Positions 8,916 to 54,255 of a stretch of DNA of 64,000 bases are shown one piece after another (within the stretch, counting starts at the first letter, position 1; every line of letters begins with the position of its first letter). Position numbers and translations under genes: made by a program. The DNA lies in contig NZ_ASGZ01000005.1 in assembly GCF_000495475.1 (NCBI RefSeq), forward strand, positions 62,001-126,000. The letters are read 5' to 3'. A model generated the notes under the pieces. The model saw nothing but the letters and a program-made list of their open reading frames with translations. It ran no database searches and was not told the DNA's origin. This stretch comes from Candidatus Halobonum tyrrellensis G22 (GTDB lineage: Archaea > Halobacteriota > Halobacteria > Halobacteriales > Haloferacaceae).

Positions 8916-9602
8916 TTACGCCGCTGTCCTTTCCGCCCGCTCCGTTCGGTCCGGGCGGTCACGCTCGTCGCGCGCGAGCATCCGGTCGACCAAGAGGACG
9001 TGAAGCGAGAACGCGACGGTGGGGAACAGCAGGACGAACCCGGCGGTCAGCGCCGCGGTGCCGACCAGGAGGACCAGCGTGACCAGCACCGCCATCAGCA
9101 CCATCGTCACGTGGGTCACCGTCCAGAGGTACGCCGTCTTGAGGCTCTCGACGAGCGGCCGGTCCCGCGCGAGAAGCGCGAGCGTCAGGGCGGAGACGAT
9201 GGCGAGGTGAGTCGCGAGATACCCGCCCACGAGGCCGAACACGAGCGGGAAGCCGACCGTCGACGACGCGGCCCGTTGGACGTAGAGGAACGCCCCGCCC
9301 CCGAAGAGCACCGGGAGGAACCCCACCAGCGTGGCCTCGATGCCGTGGCGGCGAAGCACCCCGAGGAGGTACCCGCGGTCGATCCGTCCCTCGTCGTACA
9401 GCGAGTAGATGGCGGCGTACGCGCCGAGCGTCGTCACGCCGAGCGTGACCACCGGGAGCGACGCGAAGAACCACGCGACGCTGATCACGACCAGCCGTAA
9501 CAGGCGCTCGTAGACGAACGATTTCGCGTCGCGGAGCGTGACGCGGAACACCTCGACGTCGCCCGGTCGCGCCTCTCCGCTCTCGGTCGTCTCACCGGTC
9601 AT
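8916..9602 (-). CDS. DUF624 (YesL-like) integral membrane protein
   Basis: A 228-residue membrane protein with about five hydrophobic segments. The pattern ASLPVVTLGVTTLGAYAAIY at about 48-67 is typical of the DUF624/YesL family, usually encoded next to CUT1 sugar ABC transporters in Bacillus and in haloarchaea. Its role is unknown; assistance to transporter function has been proposed only from co-location. It lies between the GH51 gene and the MalG-type permease gene on the same strand. A second, more divergent DUF624-like protein (44808-45485) sits beside the other ABC importer in this window, so both islands keep the same association. Confidence 0.8.
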   Translation of the reverse strand: MTGETTESGEARPGDVEVFRVTLRDAKSFVYERLLRLVVISVAWFFASLPVVTLGVTTLGAYAAIYSLYDEGRIDRGYLLGVLRRHGIEATLVGFLPVLFGGGAFLYVQRAASSTVGFPLVFGLVGGYLATHLAIVSALTLALLARDRPLVESLKTAYLWTVTHVTMVLMAVLVTLVLLVGTAALTAGFVLLFPTVAFSLHVLLVDRMLARDERDRPDRTERAERTAA

Positions 9603-9761: not shown

Positions 9762-10631
9762 TCACTCCACCGTCCCTTGCAGCTCGACCGCCCTGATCAG
9801 ATGCTTCTGGAGCGCCAAGAACAGAACCAACAGCGGGATCGACGCGGTGAGCGCCGACGCCATCACTAGCCCGGGCTGGCTCGTCGTCGCGTAGGCGTCG
9901 CGCACGGTGACGAGTCCGATGGGGAGGGTGTACATCGACTCGCTCTGGAGCAAGACGAGCGGTAACACGAACTGGTTCCACGTGCTGATGAACGTGAACA
10001 GCGCCAGCGCGGTCATCGCGGGCTTCATCATCGGCAGGATGAGCTTGGCGTATATCTGCACCGTCGAGAACCCGTCGAGTTGGGCGGCCTCCTCGAGTTC
10101 CTTCGGGAAGTCCTTGAAGAACTGCACCAGGAGGAAGACGCCGAGCGCGCCGCCCGACAGCGGGAGGATGACCCCGATGTACGTGTTGAGCAGCCCCAAA
10201 CTCGAGATGATGGTGTAGATGGGGATCAGGTTGACGACCGCCGGGATCATGAAGCTAGCGAGGATCGTCACGAACACCAGTCGGCGGCCTGGCCACTTTA
10301 GCCGCGTGAGCGCGAACGCGATCATCGAGTCGATGACGAGGACGACCACCGTCACCCCGCCCGCGAGGATGATCGTGTTGATGATCCACTGGACCATCGG
10401 GGCGGCGGCGAACAGTTGTTCGTACCAGGTCGTCGTCACCGCCGGCGGGATCAGGTGGGGGTTGCGGTCGAAGATCAGGTTCCGCGGGAGGATCGACTGG
10501 GTCGCCATGTACCAGTAGGGGAGGAAGAACAGGATGCCCGCGCCGTACATGGCGACGTACACCCCGAACTTCCGTAGCCGCGTCTCGTCGATGCCGATGG
10601 TCTCGTTGAGCGTCGAGCGGACGGTGCTCAC
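9762..10631 (-). CDS. Sugar ABC transporter permease, MalG type (CUT1)
   Basis: A 289-residue inner-membrane subunit of a CUT1 sugar importer with six predicted membrane spans. The cytoplasmic EAA loop EEAAQLDGFSTVQ...LILPMMKPA, which docks on the ATPase, is complete at about residues 190-220. The start overlaps the end of the MalF-type permease gene by 4 nt, so the two are translationally coupled. Gene order is binding protein, MalF-type, MalG-type, all on the minus strand. The matching ATPase gene is not in the operon; the ATPase at 17422-18552 is the likely partner. Confidence 0.92.
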   Translation of the reverse strand: MSTVRSTLNETIGIDETRLRKFGVYVAMYGAGILFFLPYWYMATQSILPRNLIFDRNPHLIPPAVTTTWYEQLFAAAPMVQWIINTIILAGGVTVVVLVIDSMIAFALTRLKWPGRRLVFVTILASFMIPAVVNLIPIYTIISSLGLLNTYIGVILPLSGGALGVFLLVQFFKDFPKELEEAAQLDGFSTVQIYAKLILPMMKPAMTALALFTFISTWNQFVLPLVLLQSESMYTLPIGLVTVRDAYATTSQPGLVMASALTASIPLLVLFLALQKHLIRAVELQGTVE

Positions 10632-11551: not shown

Positions 11552-12931
11552 TTACTTCCAGACGGAATTGAGGTTCTGTTTGATCTTGTCGAGTGCCTGT
11601 TGCGGCTCCATGTTCCCCGTGCGGACGGCGGTGACCGGGTCGTAGATGGCCTGGTGGTACTGACCGTTCTTCCGCGTCCGGGGGACGTACATGAACTCGT
11701 CGTTTTCGAGCATCTCGAACCACGTCTCCATCGTCTTATTCCAGACGGGCGCCTCCCTGAGCTCCTGGCTCTCGCGCGCTTGAACCGCGTTGGGGATGTG
11801 ACCCGCGCTCGTCCCCCACAGCAGCCCGTAGTCCTGCGTGATCGTCTTGGCGGCCTGCTTGGCCGCGTCCGTCTTCTCCTTACTCCGGTTTTTACTCGTC
11901 GGCACGGCGATCGAGTGGCTGTTACTCCACGTCTTGTTCTCGTCGAGACCCATCCCGGGGGCCGGCGGGGCTTTCATGAAGCCCCACTCCAAGTCGAGTT
12001 CCTTGTACGCGTTGTACGTCCACGTGCCGTTGTTGAGCGCCGCGGTGCCGTTGTTCTGGAACTGCTCGAACGCGACCGCGGTGTCTTTCGGGAACCACTC
12101 CCAGTTCGCGCGCATGTCGTTGACCGTCTGGAGCACCTTCAGGCCGTCCTCGTTGTCGAACCCCATCTCCCACCCGTTGTCGGTCTCTTCGAGGATCACG
12201 TTCCCCATCTGGCGGAGCCACGGGTAGTAGACGCGGTTGCCGTGGAGAGCCCCGCCGGGGTCGTACCCCATCTTGTCGGTCTCGGAGACGACGGTATCGA
12301 TCTTCTCTTTGAACTCGCTCCACGACCCCATCGTCTGTTCGGGGTCGAGCCCCGCCTCCTCGAAGATCCCCTTGTTGTAGTACGTCCCCGTCCCGAGGAT
12401 GTCGAGCGGCGCGCTCCGCAGGTCGCCCGCGACGACCCCCTCGCCGTACGACGTGCTGTAGTAACTGCTCTCGTCGAGCGTGTCGGTCAGTGGCTCGAAC
12501 GCCTCGCCGAAGCGTTTGATCCGACTCAGGTGACAGATACACATGTCCGGCGGATTCCCGCCGCTGAGTGAGGTGTACAGTTTGGTGTAGTACTGGTCCC
12601 ACGGGATGCGCTGTCGCCTGATCTGGATGTTGCTGTTCTCCTCGTTGAACGTGTCGACGATCTCTTTCATCGTCGCTCCGTCGCCGCCGGCGAACAGCGT
12701 CCAGTAGTCGAGCGTGATCTGGTCGGGTGCCGCGGTCGCGGTGGGGGTTCCGGTCGGCGTCGACGACCCGGTGCCGGTCTCCGAGTCGGTCGGGGCGTCG
12801 CCCCCGCCACCCCCGCCGCTGGCACACCCTGCGAGCGCGATAAACCCGGACCCGCCGAGCGCCGACAGCACCTGTCGCCTCCGCGCGGTACGGGCTCCCG
12901 TATCCGTGTCTGTGGCTATCTTTCGGGACAC
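11552..12931 (-). CDS. Extracellular sugar-binding lipoprotein of the CUT1 ABC importer
   Basis: A 459-residue solute-binding protein (family 1). A Tat motif with RRR at 17-19 followed by QVLSALGG and a lipobox LAGC (Cys36) indicate Tat export and lipid anchoring, usual for haloarchaea. A Ser/Thr/Asp/Gly linker follows to about residue 70, then the bilobed binding domain starting TLDYWTLFAGGDG. A TATA box at 12952-12961 lies about 26 nt before the ATG. It is the first gene of the operon with the two permeases. The upstream region (12932-13361) is packed with palindromes that may control it, although their orientation matches the dehydratase relic better. Substrate specificity is not visible. 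Confidence 0.92.
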   Translation of the reverse strand: MSRKIATDTDTGARTARRRQVLSALGGSGFIALAGCASGGGGGGDAPTDSETGTGSSTPTGTPTATAAPDQITLDYWTLFAGGDGATMKEIVDTFNEENSNIQIRRQRIPWDQYYTKLYTSLSGGNPPDMCICHLSRIKRFGEAFEPLTDTLDESSYYSTSYGEGVVAGDLRSAPLDILGTGTYYNKGIFEEAGLDPEQTMGSWSEFKEKIDTVVSETDKMGYDPGGALHGNRVYYPWLRQMGNVILEETDNGWEMGFDNEDGLKVLQTVNDMRANWEWFPKDTAVAFEQFQNNGTAALNNGTWTYNAYKELDLEWGFMKAPPAPGMGLDENKTWSNSHSIAVPTSKNRSKEKTDAAKQAAKTITQDYGLLWGTSAGHIPNAVQARESQELREAPVWNKTMETWFEMLENDEFMYVPRTRKNGQYHQAIYDPVTAVRTGNMEPQQALDKIKQNLNSVWK

Positions 12932-13044: not shown

Positions 13045-13063
13045 CGTTTCTTCGGAGGAAACG
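13045..13063. promoter_or_regulatory. 19-bp palindrome CGTTTC-N7-GAAACG (operator-like, copy 1)
   Basis: Perfect 6-bp arms CGTTTC and GAAACG are separated by seven bases. On the minus strand the site and its flanks (TTCGTTTCCT..GAAGAAACG) closely match the site at 20737-20755. Dyads of this size are typical transcription-factor targets. Candidate binder: the IclR protein encoded at 20880-21698 (inference). Confidence 0.6.
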
Positions 13064-13127: not shown

Positions 13128-13149
13128 ATTACAGCGGTACTGTTGTAAC
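13128..13149. promoter_or_regulatory. 22-bp palindrome ATTACA-N10-TGTAAC (operator-like, copy 1)
   Basis: The arms TTACA and TGTAA flank ten bases with GTAC at the centre. Near-identical sites occur at 20659-20680 and 54234-54255. Read on the minus strand, its right half (CAGTACCGCTGTAATCC) is identical to the 54-kb copy. It lies between two copies of the 19-bp palindrome. Confidence 0.6.
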
Positions 13150-13251: not shown

Positions 13252-13270
13252 CGTTTCCCAGTGAGAAACA
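13252..13270. promoter_or_regulatory. GTTTC-N7-GAAAC palindrome (operator-like, copy 2)
   Basis: CGTTTC, seven bases, then GAAACA: the inner 5-bp arms are perfect. It lies 92 bp before the ATG of the dehydratase relic at 13362. On the minus strand it reads TGTTTCTC..GGGAAAC, matching the copy at 20527-20553. Confidence 0.55.
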
Positions 13271-17421: not shown

Positions 17422-18552
17422 TCAGGCGCGGGAAGGCTGTGAGTCGGCCGCGACCCGCGACCGACCCTCGACGAGGACGTTTTCCTCCGTCTGCCCGTCG
17501 AAGAGGTGGACGTCCTCCTCGTCGAACGTGATGGACAGATGCTCCGACTCGGTGGGCTTGACGTCGGCCGAAACCCGGACAGTACACTCCTCGTCGCCGA
17601 CGAGCACGTAGAGGTAGTTGTCGCTCCCCACCGGTTCGACGACGTCGACCGTCGCTCGGACGCTCTGGTCGCCCTCCTCACCGATCCGCATGTTCTCCGG
17701 GCGGATCCCGAGCACGCCCGTCTCGCCCGTCATCCGCTCGCGGATGCGCTCGGCCAACTCCCGCGAGAGCGGGTAGTCGAACGCCCCGCCCGAGAGGACG
17801 GTTCCATCCAGTTGGACGTCGAAGAAGTTCATCGACGGCGAGCCGATGAAGTCGGCGACGAACTGGTTGGCGGGCCGGTGGTATATCTCGTCGGGCGCGC
17901 CGATCTGCTGGATCTCGCCGTGGTTGAGTATCACGACCCGGTCGGACATCGTGAGCGCCTCCTCCTGGTCGTGGGTGACGTACATCGTCGTCGTGTCGAG
18001 GTCCTCCTGGATCCGCTGGAGTTCCGTCCGCATGTGGAGGCGGAGTTTGGCGTCGAGGTTCGACAGCGGCTCGTCGAACAGGAACACCTCGGGCTCGCGG
18101 ACGATCGCACGCCCCGTCGCCACCCGCTGCTGCTGGCCACCCGACAGCTGTGCGGGCTTCTGGTCGAGCAGGCCCTCGATCCCCATCATCTCCGCCGCTT
18201 CGACCACCCGGCCGTCTATCTCGTCGTCCGAGAGGCTCGTGGTCTGTTTGAGCCCGTAGGACATGTTCTGGCGGACGCTCATGTGGGGGTAGAGCGCGTA
18301 GTTCTGAAACACCATCGCCACGCCGCGGTCTTGGGGCTGGACGTCGTTTATCTCCCGTCGGCCGATCTCGACCGTCCCCTCGGTGATGTCTTCGAGTCCC
18401 GCGACCATCCGGAGGAGGGTCGACTTCCCCGACCCCGAGGGGCCGACGATCGTCGTGAACTCGCCGTCCTCGATCCGGAAGTCCACATCGTCCACCGCCA
18501 AGATTTCCTCGTCGTACACCTTCGAAACGTGGTCGAAGTTCACTTCGCTCAT
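17422..18552 (-). CDS. Sugar ABC transporter ATPase, MalK/UgpC type (CUT1)
   Basis: A 376-residue ATP-binding subunit. Walker A is GPSGSGKST at 37-45, the signature LSGGQ at 136-140, Walker B FLFDEP with D160/E161, and a C-terminal OB/TOBE regulatory domain of about 130 residues ends with LSITFDEEDVHLFDG. It is the only ATPase near the binding protein and permeases at 9.8-12.9 kb, which lack their own, so it very likely powers that importer although transcribed separately. Such ATPases can serve several CUT1 importers. It lies between the GH43 and GH2 genes. Confidence 0.93.
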   Translation of the reverse strand: MSEVNFDHVSKVYDEEILAVDDVDFRIEDGEFTTIVGPSGSGKSTLLRMVAGLEDITEGTVEIGRREINDVQPQDRGVAMVFQNYALYPHMSVRQNMSYGLKQTTSLSDDEIDGRVVEAAEMMGIEGLLDQKPAQLSGGQQQRVATGRAIVREPEVFLFDEPLSNLDAKLRLHMRTELQRIQEDLDTTTMYVTHDQEEALTMSDRVVILNHGEIQQIGAPDEIYHRPANQFVADFIGSPSMNFFDVQLDGTVLSGGAFDYPLSRELAERIRERMTGETGVLGIRPENMRIGEEGDQSVRATVDVVEPVGSDNYLYVLVGDEECTVRVSADVKPTESEHLSITFDEEDVHLFDGQTEENVLVEGRSRVAADSQPSRA

Positions 18553-18676: not shown

Positions 18677-20413
18677 TCAGTCGTTTCGCTCGACCGCCGC
18701 GGGCTGTCGCATGATATCGCGGAGTTCACGCTCGCGTTCGGGGTCGAACTTCGACTCGCGGTCGTAGGTGAACAGGCCGTTAGCCTCCTGCTCGATGTCG
18801 TACAGTTGGGTGTAACAGAGGAGCCCGATGGCCTCGTTGTCCAACAGCGCCTCGGTCAACCCGCGGTACCGGTCGACGAACTCGTCGACGCTCTCCGGGC
18901 GGTCGCCGTACCCCCACCCCTCCTCCGCACCGGGATTCCACCAGATGCCGCCGTACTCGCTGACGTAGCTGAGTTCGGGGCCGTACTCGCCGTCGCCGTA
19001 GTCGAGGGTGACCGACTCGCCGGCTTCGAGCGCGTCGTACCGCTCGCGGAACTCGTCGACGTCCTGCGTGTAGTCGTGAACGTCGAGGAGGTCGGTCTCG
19101 ACGTGGACGTAGCCGCTGGTGTCGACGACCGGCCGGGTGGGGTCGAGCGCTTTCGTGGTCCGGTAGACCGTCCGGAGCAGGTTGTCGTCCTGGTCAGACG
19201 TGGTCTCGTTGAACGGCGTCCACCCGACGAGCGAGGGGTGGTTGTAGTCGCGTTCGACCACCTCGATCCACTCTTGGAGGAACGGGGCGAGGTTCGACGG
19301 GTCGGAGTGGTCGAGCCCCCAGTTGGCGTGTTCACCCCAGACGAGGTAGCCCAACCGATCGGCGTGATAGAGGTACCGCGGCTCGAACACCTTCTCGTGG
19401 AGGCGGGCACCGTCGAACCCCATCTCCATCCCGAGTTCGATGTCGCGTCTGAGCGCGTCGTCGGACGGGGCCGTGTACAGTCCCTCGGGGTAGTACCCCT
19501 GGTCGAGGATCAGCCGCTGGAACCGCGGCTCGCCGTTGAGGAGGACCACGCCGTCCTCGACGGACACCGACCGGAGCCCGGTGTAGCTCTCCACCTCGTC
19601 CACTACCTCCCCGTCCCGGCGGAGAGTGACCGCGAGGTCGTACAGGTCGGGCGACTCGGGGGTCCACGGGTGGACCTCGTCGACGTCGACGACGCACCTG
19701 GCCGTCTCCCCCGCGACGGGCGTCGACACTTCGCCGACGGTGTCGCCGTCGAACGTCGCGGTGACCGTCAGTTCGGTCCCGCGGGGGTCGCCGCGGAGCG
19801 ACGCCGTGAGGTGAACCGTTCCGTCGGGGAGGTTCGGGTCGATACGGAGGTCCTCGACGGACGTTTCGGGAACCGGTTCGAGCCAGACGGGTTGCCAAAT
19901 GCCGGTGATTCGGGTGTAGACCGCCCCGTGAGAGTCGTACCGCTTGCTCTGTTTGCCCGCGGGCTGTGTCTCGGTGCGGACCTCGTCGCGCGCACAGACC
20001 GTGAGGACGTTGCTCCCCGTCTCGACGTGGTCGGTCACGTCGAAGGTGAACGGTGTGTACCCGCCGCGGTGAGTGCCGACCGACTCCCCGTTCAGCCACA
20101 CCTCGGCCTCGTAGTCGACCGCACCGAAGTGGAGGAGGAGACGTCCCGCCAGGTCCTCCTCGGTCACCTCTACCTCGCGTCGGTACCACACCGCGTCCAT
20201 GAAGTCGCGATGGTCGACGCCCGACAGTTCGCTCTCGGGGGGAAACGGGACAGTGATCGTGCGTTCGAGGTCGGCGGCCGTCGGGAGCCCTCGCGCGCGT
20301 CCCGTCCTCCCGTGGTCGATCTCGAACTCCCACTCGCCGTTGAGCGATCGCCAGTCGTCGCGCCGTAGCTGCGGCCGTGGATACTCCTGTCGCGGAGCGT
20401 CGTCGGTCACCAT
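18677..20413 (-). CDS. GH2 beta-galactosidase/beta-glucuronidase-like glycosidase
   Basis: A 578-residue GH2 enzyme with sugar-binding domain (about 1-180: LNGEWEF, VWLNGESVGTHRGGY), immunoglobulin-like domain (180-280) and TIM barrel (290-578). The acid/base is E403 in WTPFNET and the nucleophile E486 in VSEYGG. It is compact and lacks an export signal, so it acts on imported oligosaccharides. Exact specificity (galactoside, arabinoside or uronide) is not readable. Its upstream region (20414-20879) contains three operator-like palindromes and a TATA-like TAGATTTAGG near 20447. The same palindrome set lies before the galactonate-dehydratase relic, hinting that galactose metabolism is the shared theme. 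Confidence 0.88.
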   Translation of the reverse strand: MVTDDAPRQEYPRPQLRRDDWRSLNGEWEFEIDHGRTGRARGLPTAADLERTITVPFPPESELSGVDHRDFMDAVWYRREVEVTEEDLAGRLLLHFGAVDYEAEVWLNGESVGTHRGGYTPFTFDVTDHVETGSNVLTVCARDEVRTETQPAGKQSKRYDSHGAVYTRITGIWQPVWLEPVPETSVEDLRIDPNLPDGTVHLTASLRGDPRGTELTVTATFDGDTVGEVSTPVAGETARCVVDVDEVHPWTPESPDLYDLAVTLRRDGEVVDEVESYTGLRSVSVEDGVVLLNGEPRFQRLILDQGYYPEGLYTAPSDDALRRDIELGMEMGFDGARLHEKVFEPRYLYHADRLGYLVWGEHANWGLDHSDPSNLAPFLQEWIEVVERDYNHPSLVGWTPFNETTSDQDDNLLRTVYRTTKALDPTRPVVDTSGYVHVETDLLDVHDYTQDVDEFRERYDALEAGESVTLDYGDGEYGPELSYVSEYGGIWWNPGAEEGWGYGDRPESVDEFVDRYRGLTEALLDNEAIGLLCYTQLYDIEQEANGLFTYDRESKFDPERERELRDIMRQPAAVERND

Positions 20414-20526: not shown

Positions 20527-20553
20527 CCGGTGTTTCTCGTCGGGAAACACCGG
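20527..20553. promoter_or_regulatory. 27-bp palindrome CCGGTGTTTC-N7-GAAACACCGG (operator-like)
   Basis: Perfect 10-bp arms around seven bases, the longest member of the GTTTC-N7-GAAAC set. It lies 114 bp upstream of the GH2 start codon (20413), and its counterpart is at 13252-13270. Confidence 0.65.
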
Positions 20554-20658: not shown

Positions 20659-20680
20659 ATTACACTGGTACTTCTGTAAC
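20659..20680. promoter_or_regulatory. 22-bp palindrome ATTACA-N10-TGTAAC (operator-like, copy 2)
   Basis: TTACA and TGTAA arms with central GGTAC. It lies between the two GTTTC-N7-GAAAC sites of the GH2 upstream region. See 13128-13149 and 54234-54255. Confidence 0.6.
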
Positions 20681-20736: not shown

Positions 20737-20755
20737 CGTTTCCTGTGAAGAAACG
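20737..20755. promoter_or_regulatory. 19-bp palindrome CGTTTC-N7-GAAACG (operator-like, copy 4)
   Basis: Perfect 6-bp arms around CTGTGAA. Its flanks match the minus strand of the site at 13045-13063. It lies between the 3' end of the IclR gene (20880) and the GH2 promoter. Confidence 0.6.
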
Positions 20756-20879: not shown

Positions 20880-21698
20880 TCAGTCGGACAAGCGGAGCAG
20901 GTTCGTCTCGACGGACTTCCCCGTCTCGACGAGGAGTCCCGCGATCTCCTCTTGGAGGCGGCGGCCGTAGAGGCTCGACTCCGCCCCGCTGACTTCGATC
21001 GCGGCGACGGCGTAGTTGTTCGCGTCGCGAATGGGGACGGCCACGCCGTTGAGGTCGTGGTACGGTTCGCCGTGGCCGACGACGTGTCGGTGTCCCTCGA
21101 ACGAGCCGGCGCTGAACACGCGCTCTTGGGGGTTCGAGCGCCCGACCACCAGCCGCTGGTCCCGGAGGGTGCGTAGCTCGGAGAGGAGTTTCTCCGTGTC
21201 GGTGTCGTCGTCGGTGTCGAGCGTCTCCAACAGCGCTCGTACCTCCTCGGTCGGTCTGTACGATAAGAGCGCCTTGCCACCGACCGAGATAGGCGCCGGG
21301 ATGCGCTCGCCCTCCTCGACCGGGGACAACGCCGGTTCGCGCTCGCTGCTCTGGAGGATGTACACCGCGTCCCCCGCCTCCTCGACCACCAGCGATACCG
21401 TCTCACCGGTCCGCCGCGCGAGGCTCTCCACTTCGTCCTTGGCGGCCTGAAACACCGGTCGGCGCTCGCGCACCCGCCTGCCGGCACCGAGCCACCGCAT
21501 CGACAGCGAGTACCGGGTCCCCTCTTTGCTCACGTATCCGAGTTCGAGGAGCGTGCTCAGGTGCTTGTGAACCGAACTCTTCACGATCCCCGTCTCCTGT
21601 GCGATCTCGGTGACGCCCATCTCTCCCCCCTGGTTCAACGCCTCGATGATCGTGAACGCGGTGACGTCGGACTTCACGCGGTGGGAGGTGGTTGCCAT
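20880..21698 (-). CDS. IclR-family transcriptional regulator
   Basis: A 272-residue regulator. The N-terminal winged helix (about 10-70: TIIEALNQGGEMGVTEIAQ, SSVHKHLSTL) binds DNA, and the C-terminal IclR effector domain (about 85-270) contains PAPISVGGKALLS. The ATG at 21698 is set by a TATA-like TTTTATTGAT (21721-21730, minus strand) about 29 nt upstream. IclR proteins control pentose and other sugar genes in haloarchaea (XacR in Haloferax is one). The gene lies between two GH2 genes, divergent from the larger one. The GTTTC-N7-GAAAC and TTACA-N10-TGTAA palindromes beside its 3' end are candidate targets (inference). Activator or repressor status is unknown. Confidence 0.9.
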   Translation of the reverse strand: MATTSHRVKSDVTAFTIIEALNQGGEMGVTEIAQETGIVKSSVHKHLSTLLELGYVSKEGTRYSLSMRWLGAGRRVRERRPVFQAAKDEVESLARRTGETVSLVVEEAGDAVYILQSSEREPALSPVEEGERIPAPISVGGKALLSYRPTEEVRALLETLDTDDDTDTEKLLSELRTLRDQRLVVGRSNPQERVFSAGSFEGHRHVVGHGEPYHDLNGVAVPIRDANNYAVAAIEVSGAESSLYGRRLQEEIAGLLVETGKSVETNLLRLSD

Positions 21699-51876: not shown

Positions 51877-52707
51877 ATGGACGACCGCCCGCTCCCGCCG
51901 GCCGAGGCGTTCGACAGTCGCGTCGCGCGGACGACGGTGACGAGCTTCCGGATGATCGAGGCGCTCGAGGGCGGCGGATACGCGGGCGTCAGCCAACTCG
52001 CGGCGGACCTGTCGCTCAGCAAGGGGACGGTCCACAAACACCTCACCACGCTCCGCGAACTCGGCTACGTGGTTCGCGAGGACGGTCAGTACCGGCTGAG
52101 CCTCGCGTTCCTCGGACTCGGGACGAGCGTCCGGGGGCGGACCGAACTGTACGAGGTGTCGCGGGACCACCTCGCGAACCTCGCGGAGGCGACCGAGGAG
52201 GTGGCGAGCGTGATGGTTCCCGAACGACACTGGGGGGTGTACCTGTCCCACACCCGCAGCGCGGGGGTCGAGTCGGCCACTCGCCGCGAGGGCGAGCGGG
52301 TGCCGCTGACGGCCACCGCGGGCGGCAAAGTGATCCTCGCACACCTCCCGGACGACGAGCGCGACCGCATCCTCGACGAGCGAGGGCTGCCGGCGCTGAC
52401 CGAGAACACGGTGACCGACCGCGACGAACTGCTGGCGGAGCTCCGTACCGCGCGCGACAACCGGTTCGCCCACGACCGGGGCGAACTCGAACCCGACCGG
52501 CACTGCGTGGCCGCACCGATCACCGGTCCGGACGGGACTGCCGTCGCGGCAGTGACGGTGTCCGGTCCGGCCGAGCGGATGACGGAGAAGGCGACTCGTC
52601 TCGACTTCCCGAGCATCGTCGGGAGCACGGCGACCGCCATCCAGAACCGACTCGGGCGCGAGCGGTCCGACGACGGCCCAGCCGACTCCGGCGAAGGACA
52701 GCTATAA
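51877..52707 (+). CDS. IclR-family transcriptional regulator
   Basis: A 276-residue regulator. Winged helix at about 15-75 (SFRMIEALEGGGYAGVSQLA, LSKGTVHKHLTTLRELGYVV) and IclR effector domain at about 90-265 (GERVPLTATAGGKVILAHLP, HCVAAPITGPDGT). The ATG at 51877 is preferred over upstream codons that are arginine-rich. The three 17-bp palindromes upstream are its likely sites. It probably controls the second sugar island: importer, GH4 enzyme and the sulfatase that follows. Confidence 0.9.
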   Translation: MDDRPLPPAEAFDSRVARTTVTSFRMIEALEGGGYAGVSQLAADLSLSKGTVHKHLTTLRELGYVVREDGQYRLSLAFLGLGTSVRGRTELYEVSRDHLANLAEATEEVASVMVPERHWGVYLSHTRSAGVESATRREGERVPLTATAGGKVILAHLPDDERDRILDERGLPALTENTVTDRDELLAELRTARDNRFAHDRGELEPDRHCVAAPITGPDGTAVAAVTVSGPAERMTEKATRLDFPSIVGSTATAIQNRLGRERSDDGPADSGEGQL

Positions 52708-52732: not shown

Positions 52733-54076
52733 GTGACCCCGAACCCAACGTCGCCGAACGTGCTGGTCGTGACGACGGATCAGCAGCGGTGGGACACGGT
52801 CGGGGCGTACGGCAACCCGATGGGGCTCACGCCGACGCTCGACTCGCTGGCGCGCTGCGGGACCCGCGTCGACCGGGCGATCACACCGCAACCCGGCTGT
52901 GCGCCGTTCCGGGCCGCCTTCCAGACGGGCCGGTTCGCGACGGAGACGGGCGTGTGGCGCGAGTCGTTCGCGCTCGACGAGTCGACGACCACGCTCGCAC
53001 ACCGGTTCGCCGACGCCGGCTACGACGTCGGCTTCGTCGGGAACTGGCACGTCGGCGGGACGTTCGACGAACCGGTTCCCGAACGCTTGCGCGGCGGGTA
53101 CGACGACTTCTGGCTCGCCGCGGACGTCCCGGAGTTCACCTCCAAACCCGACCACGGCCACCTGTTCGACGAGTCGGGCGCCGAAGTCGCCTTCGACGAG
53201 TACCGCGCGGACGCGTTCACCCGGTTCGGCGAACGGGCGCTCGACTCGCTCTCGGAGCCGTTCTTCCTGGTCGTCTCCTACCTCGAACCCCACCACCAGA
53301 ACGACATGTGGACGTTCGTCGCCCCCGACGGGTACGCCGAACGGTACCGGACCGACCCGTACGTCCCGGCGGACCTGGTCGACGGGTTCGGCGACTGGTA
53401 CGGCGAACTGCCCGACTACTACGGCATGGTCGAGCGACTCGACGAGTGCGTCGACGACCTGCTGTCGACTCTCACCCGGCGGGGCGTCCGCGACGACACC
53501 CTCGTCGCGTACACCGCCGACCACGGCTGTCACTTCCGGACCCGCCCCGGCGAGTACAAACGGACGCCACACGACGCCGCGGTCCGCGTGCCGCTGATCC
53601 TCGCCGGTCCGGGGTTCGACGACGGCCGGAACGTCGAACGCGTGACGAGCGTCATCGACCTGCCGCCGACGCTCCTCGACGTCGCCGGCATCGAGATCCC
53701 CGACGAGATGCACGGCGAGAGCCTGCTCCCGGTCGTCCGGGGAGAGCGCCCGGACGAGGACGGCGACGCGTTCATCCAGATCAGCGAGTCCCAGGTCGGG
53801 CGGGCGATCCGGACGGCGGACTGGAAGTACGCCGTCGCGGCGCCGAAACTCACCGGCTGGCGGGGCGGCAACGGCCAGCCTTCGAGCGACCGCTACCTCG
53901 AACGGTACCTCTACGACCTCCGGCGCGACCCGAACGAACGGGTGAACCTCGCCGGTCGCTCCAACTACCGGGACGTCGCGGACGACCTCCGCGACCGACT
54001 GCTGGAGTACATCTCCGCGGTCGAGGGTGAGACCCCGGACGTCAAGCCCATCGAGAAAGGGTACAAGGAGTACTGA
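52733..54076 (+). CDS. Sulfatase (arylsulfatase family)
   Basis: A 447-residue sulfatase. TTDQQRWDTVG near 14-24 supplies metal ligands. The active-site motif CAPFRAAFQTG begins at C56 (CxPxR, formylglycine precursor). YTADHGCHF carries the second Asp-His pair. The GTG start at 52733 is supported by the TATA box. There is no signal peptide. It is directly downstream of the IclR gene, so probably in the same regulon as the GH4 enzyme. With the two sulfatases at 3-6.5 kb, this makes three in the window. Substrate unknown. Confidence 0.88.
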   Translation: MTPNPTSPNVLVVTTDQQRWDTVGAYGNPMGLTPTLDSLARCGTRVDRAITPQPGCAPFRAAFQTGRFATETGVWRESFALDESTTTLAHRFADAGYDVGFVGNWHVGGTFDEPVPERLRGGYDDFWLAADVPEFTSKPDHGHLFDESGAEVAFDEYRADAFTRFGERALDSLSEPFFLVVSYLEPHHQNDMWTFVAPDGYAERYRTDPYVPADLVDGFGDWYGELPDYYGMVERLDECVDDLLSTLTRRGVRDDTLVAYTADHGCHFRTRPGEYKRTPHDAAVRVPLILAGPGFDDGRNVERVTSVIDLPPTLLDVAGIEIPDEMHGESLLPVVRGERPDEDGDAFIQISESQVGRAIRTADWKYAVAAPKLTGWRGGNGQPSSDRYLERYLYDLRRDPNERVNLAGRSNYRDVADDLRDRLLEYISAVEGETPDVKPIEKGYKEY

Positions 54077-54233: not shown

Positions 54234-54255
54234 ATTACACCAGTACCGCTGTAAT
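54234..54255. promoter_or_regulatory. 22-bp palindrome ATTACA-N10-TGTAAT (operator-like, copy 3, orphan)
   Basis: The most symmetric of the three copies, with ATTACA and TGTAAT arms and GTAC at the centre. No gene starts within several hundred bases, so it may have served a gene since lost. Confidence 0.55.

Follow-up and report, generated by a model that had tools for sequence, protein, structure and literature searches.

Operators of bacterial IclR-family regulators have been sorted into groups, of which group 1 follows the consensus GKTYCRYW3-4RYGRAMC (PMC8222616). In the haloarchaea, genes for the IclR activators XacR, RhcR, GacR, and MscR stand beside oxidative sugar pathways with ABC transporters (PMC11519228), and a palindrome is reported to lie at the xacR operator (Johnsen 2015). 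At the H. volcanii xacEA promoter, expression from the first 250 bp is constitutive, and control by xylose requires sequence as far as 750 bp (PMC10448506). Genome-wide palindromic motifs are also described in haloarchaea for TrmB, which likewise acts on carbon metabolism, and for CsmR (PMC10817205, PMC13286277). RdfA and Sph3 have a role in rod shape by a mechanism that is not known (PMC10869688); adjacent rdfA–sph pairs are conserved in Halobacteria, and the relevant sections of the papers on these proteins and on coalescin-type SMC-related proteins describe no DNA site for RdfA/Sph (PMC10869688, PMC9389158). In bacterial CRP-type promoters, one global site is combined with the site of a local, pathway-specific regulator.

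Two DNA elements were found in the 64,000-nt stretch of DNA analyzed here (the window), in which IclR genes likewise lie near sugar genes and an ABC transporter. The first, a set of GTTTC-N7-GAAAC boxes, shares with the group 1 operators the 17-bp layout and the outer letters. The second, a palindrome referred to below as the common site, shares with the group 2 operators only the inward-facing polarity ACA...TGT; its arms are 10 bp apart around a central TA rather than 1–2 bp, its letters follow the organism and not the IclR protein, and it accompanies many unrelated IclR clades. Its letters fit no published IclR consensus tested (GKTYC-N7-GRAMC or TGRAACA-N1-2-TGTTYCA; PMC8222616). The CsmR motif, TATCA-N4-TGATA, differs from it in sequence and was rejected as an identity for it (PMC13286277). 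No identity of the reported xacR palindrome with either the common site or the boxes is implied, and the resemblance to CRP-type promoters is one of working only, with no relation of sequence, fold, or family claimed. No published description of the motif was found in the open-access literature searched.

Common sites and paired boxes in the window

A preliminary description had noted a 22-bp TTACA-N10-TGTAA palindrome with central GTAC in three places, had found 17 consecutive bases common to the first (minus strand) and the third copy, and had placed each of the first two between two GTTTC-type sites. All of this held. The core is 20 bp, TTACA-N3-GTAC-N3-TGTAA, the 22 bp being this core with one flanking base on each side, and the window has three perfect matches, listed here without strand: site 1 at 13129–13148 (TTACAGCGGTACTGTTGTAA), site 2 at 20660–20679 (TTACACTGGTACTTCTGTAA), and site 3 at 54235–54254 (TTACACCAGTACCGCTGTAA). 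The bases common to sites 1 and 3 are CAGTACCGCTGTAATCC. By chance, a mean of 0.30 matches would be expected in the window even with three mismatches permitted, and none of 100 shuffles reached three. No Rfam family and no tRNA was found in the window. The possibility that the palindromes are chance occurrences, RNA hairpins, or terminators has nothing beyond their palindromic form in its favor and can practically be ruled out: controls are near zero, and the inner N3 triplets are barely complementary (0.28–0.34 versus 0.26–0.28 expected), so that a selected RNA stem was rejected.

Site 1 lies upstream of a leftward sugar ABC transporter operon, whose solute-binding protein (SBP) gene (11552–12931, minus strand; GTG start at 12931, read from the sequence) is its presumed target; permease genes follow at 10628 and 9762. 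After these permease genes is a 228-aa gene (8916–9602, minus strand) with no Pfam family match; a gene in the same position is kept in another locus (L339) at 38% identity. Site 2 lies between an IclR gene (20880–21698, minus strand; Pfam IclR_C and HTH_IclR) and its presumed target, a leftward gene for a glycoside hydrolase of family 2 (GH2; 18677–20413, minus strand), and the same sugar cluster includes a MalK-type ABC ATPase gene (17422–18552, minus strand). Site 3 is found 3′ of a gene pair consisting of a second IclR gene (51877–52707, plus strand) and a sulfatase gene (52733–54076, plus strand).

The boxes flanking sites 1 and 2 are exact GTTTC-N7-GAAAC palindromes, again listed without strand. 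At site 1, the promoter-proximal box (13046–13062) is centered ∼123 bp before the SBP start and the distal box is at 13253–13269; at site 2, the promoter-proximal box (20532–20548) is centered ∼127 bp upstream of the GH2 start (20413) and the distal box is at 20738–20754. Center-to-center distances within the two pairs are 207 and 206 bp. Only five exact copies occur in the whole genome, and four of them are those that flank sites 1 and 2. The fifth (C13:153198–153214, in locus L346) has no exact common site noted beside it.

Distribution of the common site

An absence of further sites close to promoters, here or in related genomes, would have refuted the preliminary description. Over the full 3.68 Mb of the genome, the core motif occurs in nine exact places and in 30 with up to two mismatches, versus none for a reversed control pattern. 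By the gene calls made in this analysis, all 30 are intergenic, and their neighbors are mostly genes for transporters, glycosidases, dehydrogenases, dehydratases, and IclR-type regulators. Among 148 genomes of the family, 49 have exact copies; these too lie between genes, mostly next to IclR genes or genes of carbohydrate catabolism. The claim of a shared regulatory site near sugar genes was therefore not refuted and is supported, with two corrections: the neighbors are not sugar genes only, but include rdfA/sph, nucleobase, and other catabolic genes, and many sites are 3′ of IclR genes and not in promoters. We regard the palindromes as members of a large and apparently undescribed set of putative protein-binding sites beside sugar-use and IclR genes in Halobacteria, for which there are no binding data.

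Association with IclR genes

To guard against circularity, IclR loci were chosen by Pfam hit alone, blind to the motif. From these loci a relaxed form of the site emerged, TNACA-N3-NTAN-N3-TGTNA, with 47 of 60 loci exceeding column-permuted weight matrices (95th percentile). A perfect relaxed site was found within 700 bp of the IclR gene at 28 of 61 blind loci in the genome's own family, where 127 letter-permuted palindromes gave a mean of 0.03 and a maximum of 1, and at 16 of 41 in other families of the class (control mean 0.06, maximum 1). Combined, 44 of 102 blind loci had a perfect site versus 0–1 for shuffled palindromes. TrmB was rejected as a partner, as TrmB-centered loci of the same family gave no perfect site in 30 and two near matches.

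In this genome, a site lies no more than 2 kb from eight of the 11 IclR genes (chance 5e-10). A variant, TGACA-N3-GTAT-N3-TGTCA (C64:18711–18730; L148:3012–3031), is located upstream of a further IclR gene in the same genome. A second genome (G111, which we take to be Haloferax denitrificans; contigs C4 and C8) has 22 perfect relaxed sites in several central contexts (GTAC, ATAT, TTAG, and CTAT). The usual position is 16–600 bp 3′ of the IclR gene or 180–500 bp 5′ of it; many sites follow IclR genes on the 3′ side or separate convergent genes, which is odd for a plain promoter operator.

Conservation at pentose-type promoters

At a pentose-type cluster, the site lies in the divergent promoter between genes for an enolase-superfamily dehydratase and an FAH-family enzyme. 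It is present there in this genome, in two Haladaptatus species, and in Halobacterium sp. KA-4, with the arms kept and the spacer letters changed. In this genome and the two Haladaptatus species the site ends 104 bp before the FAH gene and is 36.5 bp from an IclR-type box. A site is also found ∼480–565 bp before an xacE-like gene in Haloferax denitrificans, H. massiliensis, and H. gibbonsii, so that the distant control region of the H. volcanii xacEA promoter (−250 to −750; PMC10448506) holds a site in related species; this may be a functional hint.

Box letters follow the IclR clade

Orthologues of the window IclR (20880–21698) that are 41–65% identical to it in other families retain a box–site or box–site–box layout, including the GTTTC/TTACA/GTTTC order seen here; in one such genome the arms are TAACA...TGTTA and the box is still GTTTC. 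De novo palindrome searches near sites recovered further boxes with this 17-bp arrangement, prominent among them TTCCG-N7-CGGAA, which occurs near the xacR-like (pentose-type) clade. At sites of the xacR-like clade, TTCCG boxes outnumber GTTTC boxes by 20 to 4, as against 1 to 10 for the clade of the window IclR (Fisher 5e-5). The criterion that box letters should follow the IclR clade across genera was thus met for both kinds of box. Compared with the group 1 consensus (PMC8222616), the outer pentamers and spacing of GTTTC boxes match; the agreement does not extend fully to the inner RY positions, nor to the letters of the TTCCG boxes. Distances between site and box cluster near 36–40, 65–85, and 122–137 bp, but the tests are weak and the distances are not independent, so helical phasing is not claimed. 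A second factor at the GTTTC boxes, as the preliminary description had proposed, is therefore supported to the extent that the boxes are a separate element following the IclR clade. That there are two elements, one common and one IclR-specific, with a different factor on each, is read from sequence alone, and the pairing of factor with element is an inference.

Arm letters follow the organism

Halobellus genomes have as many as 11 exact copies of TAACA-N3-GTAC-N3-TGTTA each, most of these genomes having six or more, and the TTACA form is nearly absent there. In Haloferax, a further genus (g27), and this genome the reverse holds, with TTACA in place of TAACA. Among IclR relatives across genera, agreement in arm letter is 0.57, no better than chance; IclRs that are 68–75% identical across genera can differ in it, and two IclRs with the identical recognition helix NKSTVHNHLSTL, one from Halobellus and one from Haloferax, adjoin TAACA and TTACA sites, respectively.

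These results bear on the initial working hypothesis, that the palindrome is an IclR operator common to haloarchaea and is bound by the IclR proteins themselves, with each paralogue recognizing the copy by its own gene. In its favor are the very strong association in position with IclR genes from many deep clades, by which the site meets the criterion of adjoining IclR genes above chance, and a widely kept recognition helix, K-S-T-V-H-x-H-L. Against it, site letters did not follow the regulator's clade, as would be required, but switched genus by genus, with one and the same helix beside both forms. Furthermore, it is the separate clade-specific boxes that resemble IclR operators, and eight genomes with IclR but without RdfA have no sites. 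The hypothesis was demoted on account of the letter switch, and we now consider it unlikely. Since the letters change by genus and not by IclR orthology, one factor per genome, or a few, would be a better reader than many local IclRs, although this too is inferred only from the sequences.

RdfA and Sph as candidate readers

Sites recur in the promoters of rdfA and the adjacent SMC-like sph, sometimes twice per cassette with the same unusual letters. In this genome, the single rdfA gene (C68:110508), with an SMC-like gene downstream, has the variant TTACGGCCGTACGTGCGTAA 59 bp upstream, at C68:110382–110401 (L028:3883–3902). Among 30 rdfA loci chosen blind, 11 have a perfect site (control mean 0.02, range 0–1), and many have none. 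At rdfA/sph sites the arm letters agree with those of the nearest RdfA relative in 94–97% of cases (chance 47%), an agreement that is partly shared ancestry. When 59 exact sites were taken, one per genome, an IclR gene was within 1.5 kb of 29 and rdfA/sph within 1.5 kb of 10.

The presence of sites depends on that of RdfA. Across the 148 genomes of the family, RdfA is encoded in all 74 with at least one exact site of either arm form, TTACA or TAACA, and the 26 genomes that lack RdfA have no such site (2e-9). Among IclR-positive genomes, sites are found in 73 of 117 with RdfA versus none of eight without (6e-4), and among genomes with only one or two IclR genes in 15 of 28 versus none of eight. 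The presence of RdfA and that of IclR are correlated across genomes, which is a caveat on this dependence. Two criteria, that sites should occur only where RdfA does and that a site should lie in the rdfA or sph promoter, were met.

RdfA has no annotated or recognized DNA-binding domain. The predicted structure (mean pLDDT 83.7) shows helices and a cysteine-rich tail, and a fold search returned no solved relative (no PDB match), the rows being unrelated helical proteins. A further difficulty comes from one genus (g11; genomes G079, G054, G010, and G035) with two site classes per genome: rdfA promoters and a small number of other positions carry TAACA, IclR genes have TTACA, and none of the TTACA sites was seen to have an rdfA gene next to it. 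Two letter classes call for a second reader for TTACA; either there is a second RdfA copy, or RdfA is not the reader. With no binding data, RdfA, probably with its SMC-like partner Sph, is the best candidate for the common reader within an overall explanation that may as readily prove wrong as right.

Two further arrangements were observed. In Haloferax, a second rdfA–sph pair (L255:12305–15167 and the same region in loci L252, L253, L256–L258, and L271) lies between two IclR genes and contains two asymmetric sites, TTACA-N3-TTAG-N3-TGTCA. In another locus, a site (L103:4110–4129) lies 68 bp before a gene for an AsnC-type regulator inserted between sph and a second rdfA gene.

It remains possible that all sites are read by a global regulator that is neither RdfA nor IclR, for example an undetected winged-helix protein acting as a catabolite-regulator analogue like CRP. 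The same data that favor one common factor favor this, as does the position of sites beside many kinds of catabolic genes; such a regulator must, however, be distributed among genomes as RdfA is, and its site must occur in rdfA/sph promoters with letters that vary in step with RdfA. An alternative that we consider very doubtful is a chromosome-organization element, at which Sph would be loaded or anchored via RdfA and proximity to IclR genes would reflect the organization of compartments or replicons and not promoter control. The rdfA/sph association, the many sites 3′ of genes or in convergent regions, and the fact that Sph is in one family with Sulfolobus coalescin, a protein that establishes compartments of low transcription (PMC9389158), speak for it. 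Against it, the conserved spacings to IclR-type boxes and gene starts at the pentose-type promoters point to promoter control, and there are no contact data.

Discussion

The motif, its association with IclR and with rdfA/sph, the switch of letters by genus, the box letters by IclR clade, and the dependence on RdfA are shown by computation. Our preferred reading, for which we would claim no better than an equal chance of being correct, is that a common dimeric factor, with RdfA, alone or with Sph, as the best candidate, occupies the palindrome and the local IclR its own boxes. Each genome would have a single dimeric DNA-binding factor that reads its copies of the palindrome, and across Halobacteria those copies would stand next to IclR genes and to catabolic promoters under IclR control. 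The local IclR, responding to its sugar, would occupy the pathway-specific 17-bp boxes (here GTTTC-N7-GAAAC), and the common factor between or beside them would contribute an input shared across the genome, comparable, by analogy only, to that of CRP alongside local regulators in bacteria. Each promoter would thus combine a pathway-specific regulator with the common factor. RdfA as binder, IclR on the boxes, and transcriptional control by the assembly are all inferred from sequence alone, with no binding or expression data.

If the factor is RdfA, its SMC-like partner, a relative of coalescin (PMC9389158), could fold or silence the locus. A bolder reading, offered as a possibility, is that site-specific RdfA recruits the SMC-family ATPase Sph to dispersed palindromes at catabolic loci in cooperation with IclRs, control of cell shape then being one output of an archaeal gene-control system that is based on SMC proteins and directed by sequence.

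The common site provides a searchable common operator, still putative, for the carbohydrate and other catabolic regulons of Halobacteria, and its separation from the IclR-specific boxes may make pathway regulons readable from sequence. For RdfA and Sph, whose mechanism in shape control is unexplained, it also suggests a molecular role that can be tested. Should RdfA bind the site, archaea would have an SMC-family system directed to its targets by sequence.
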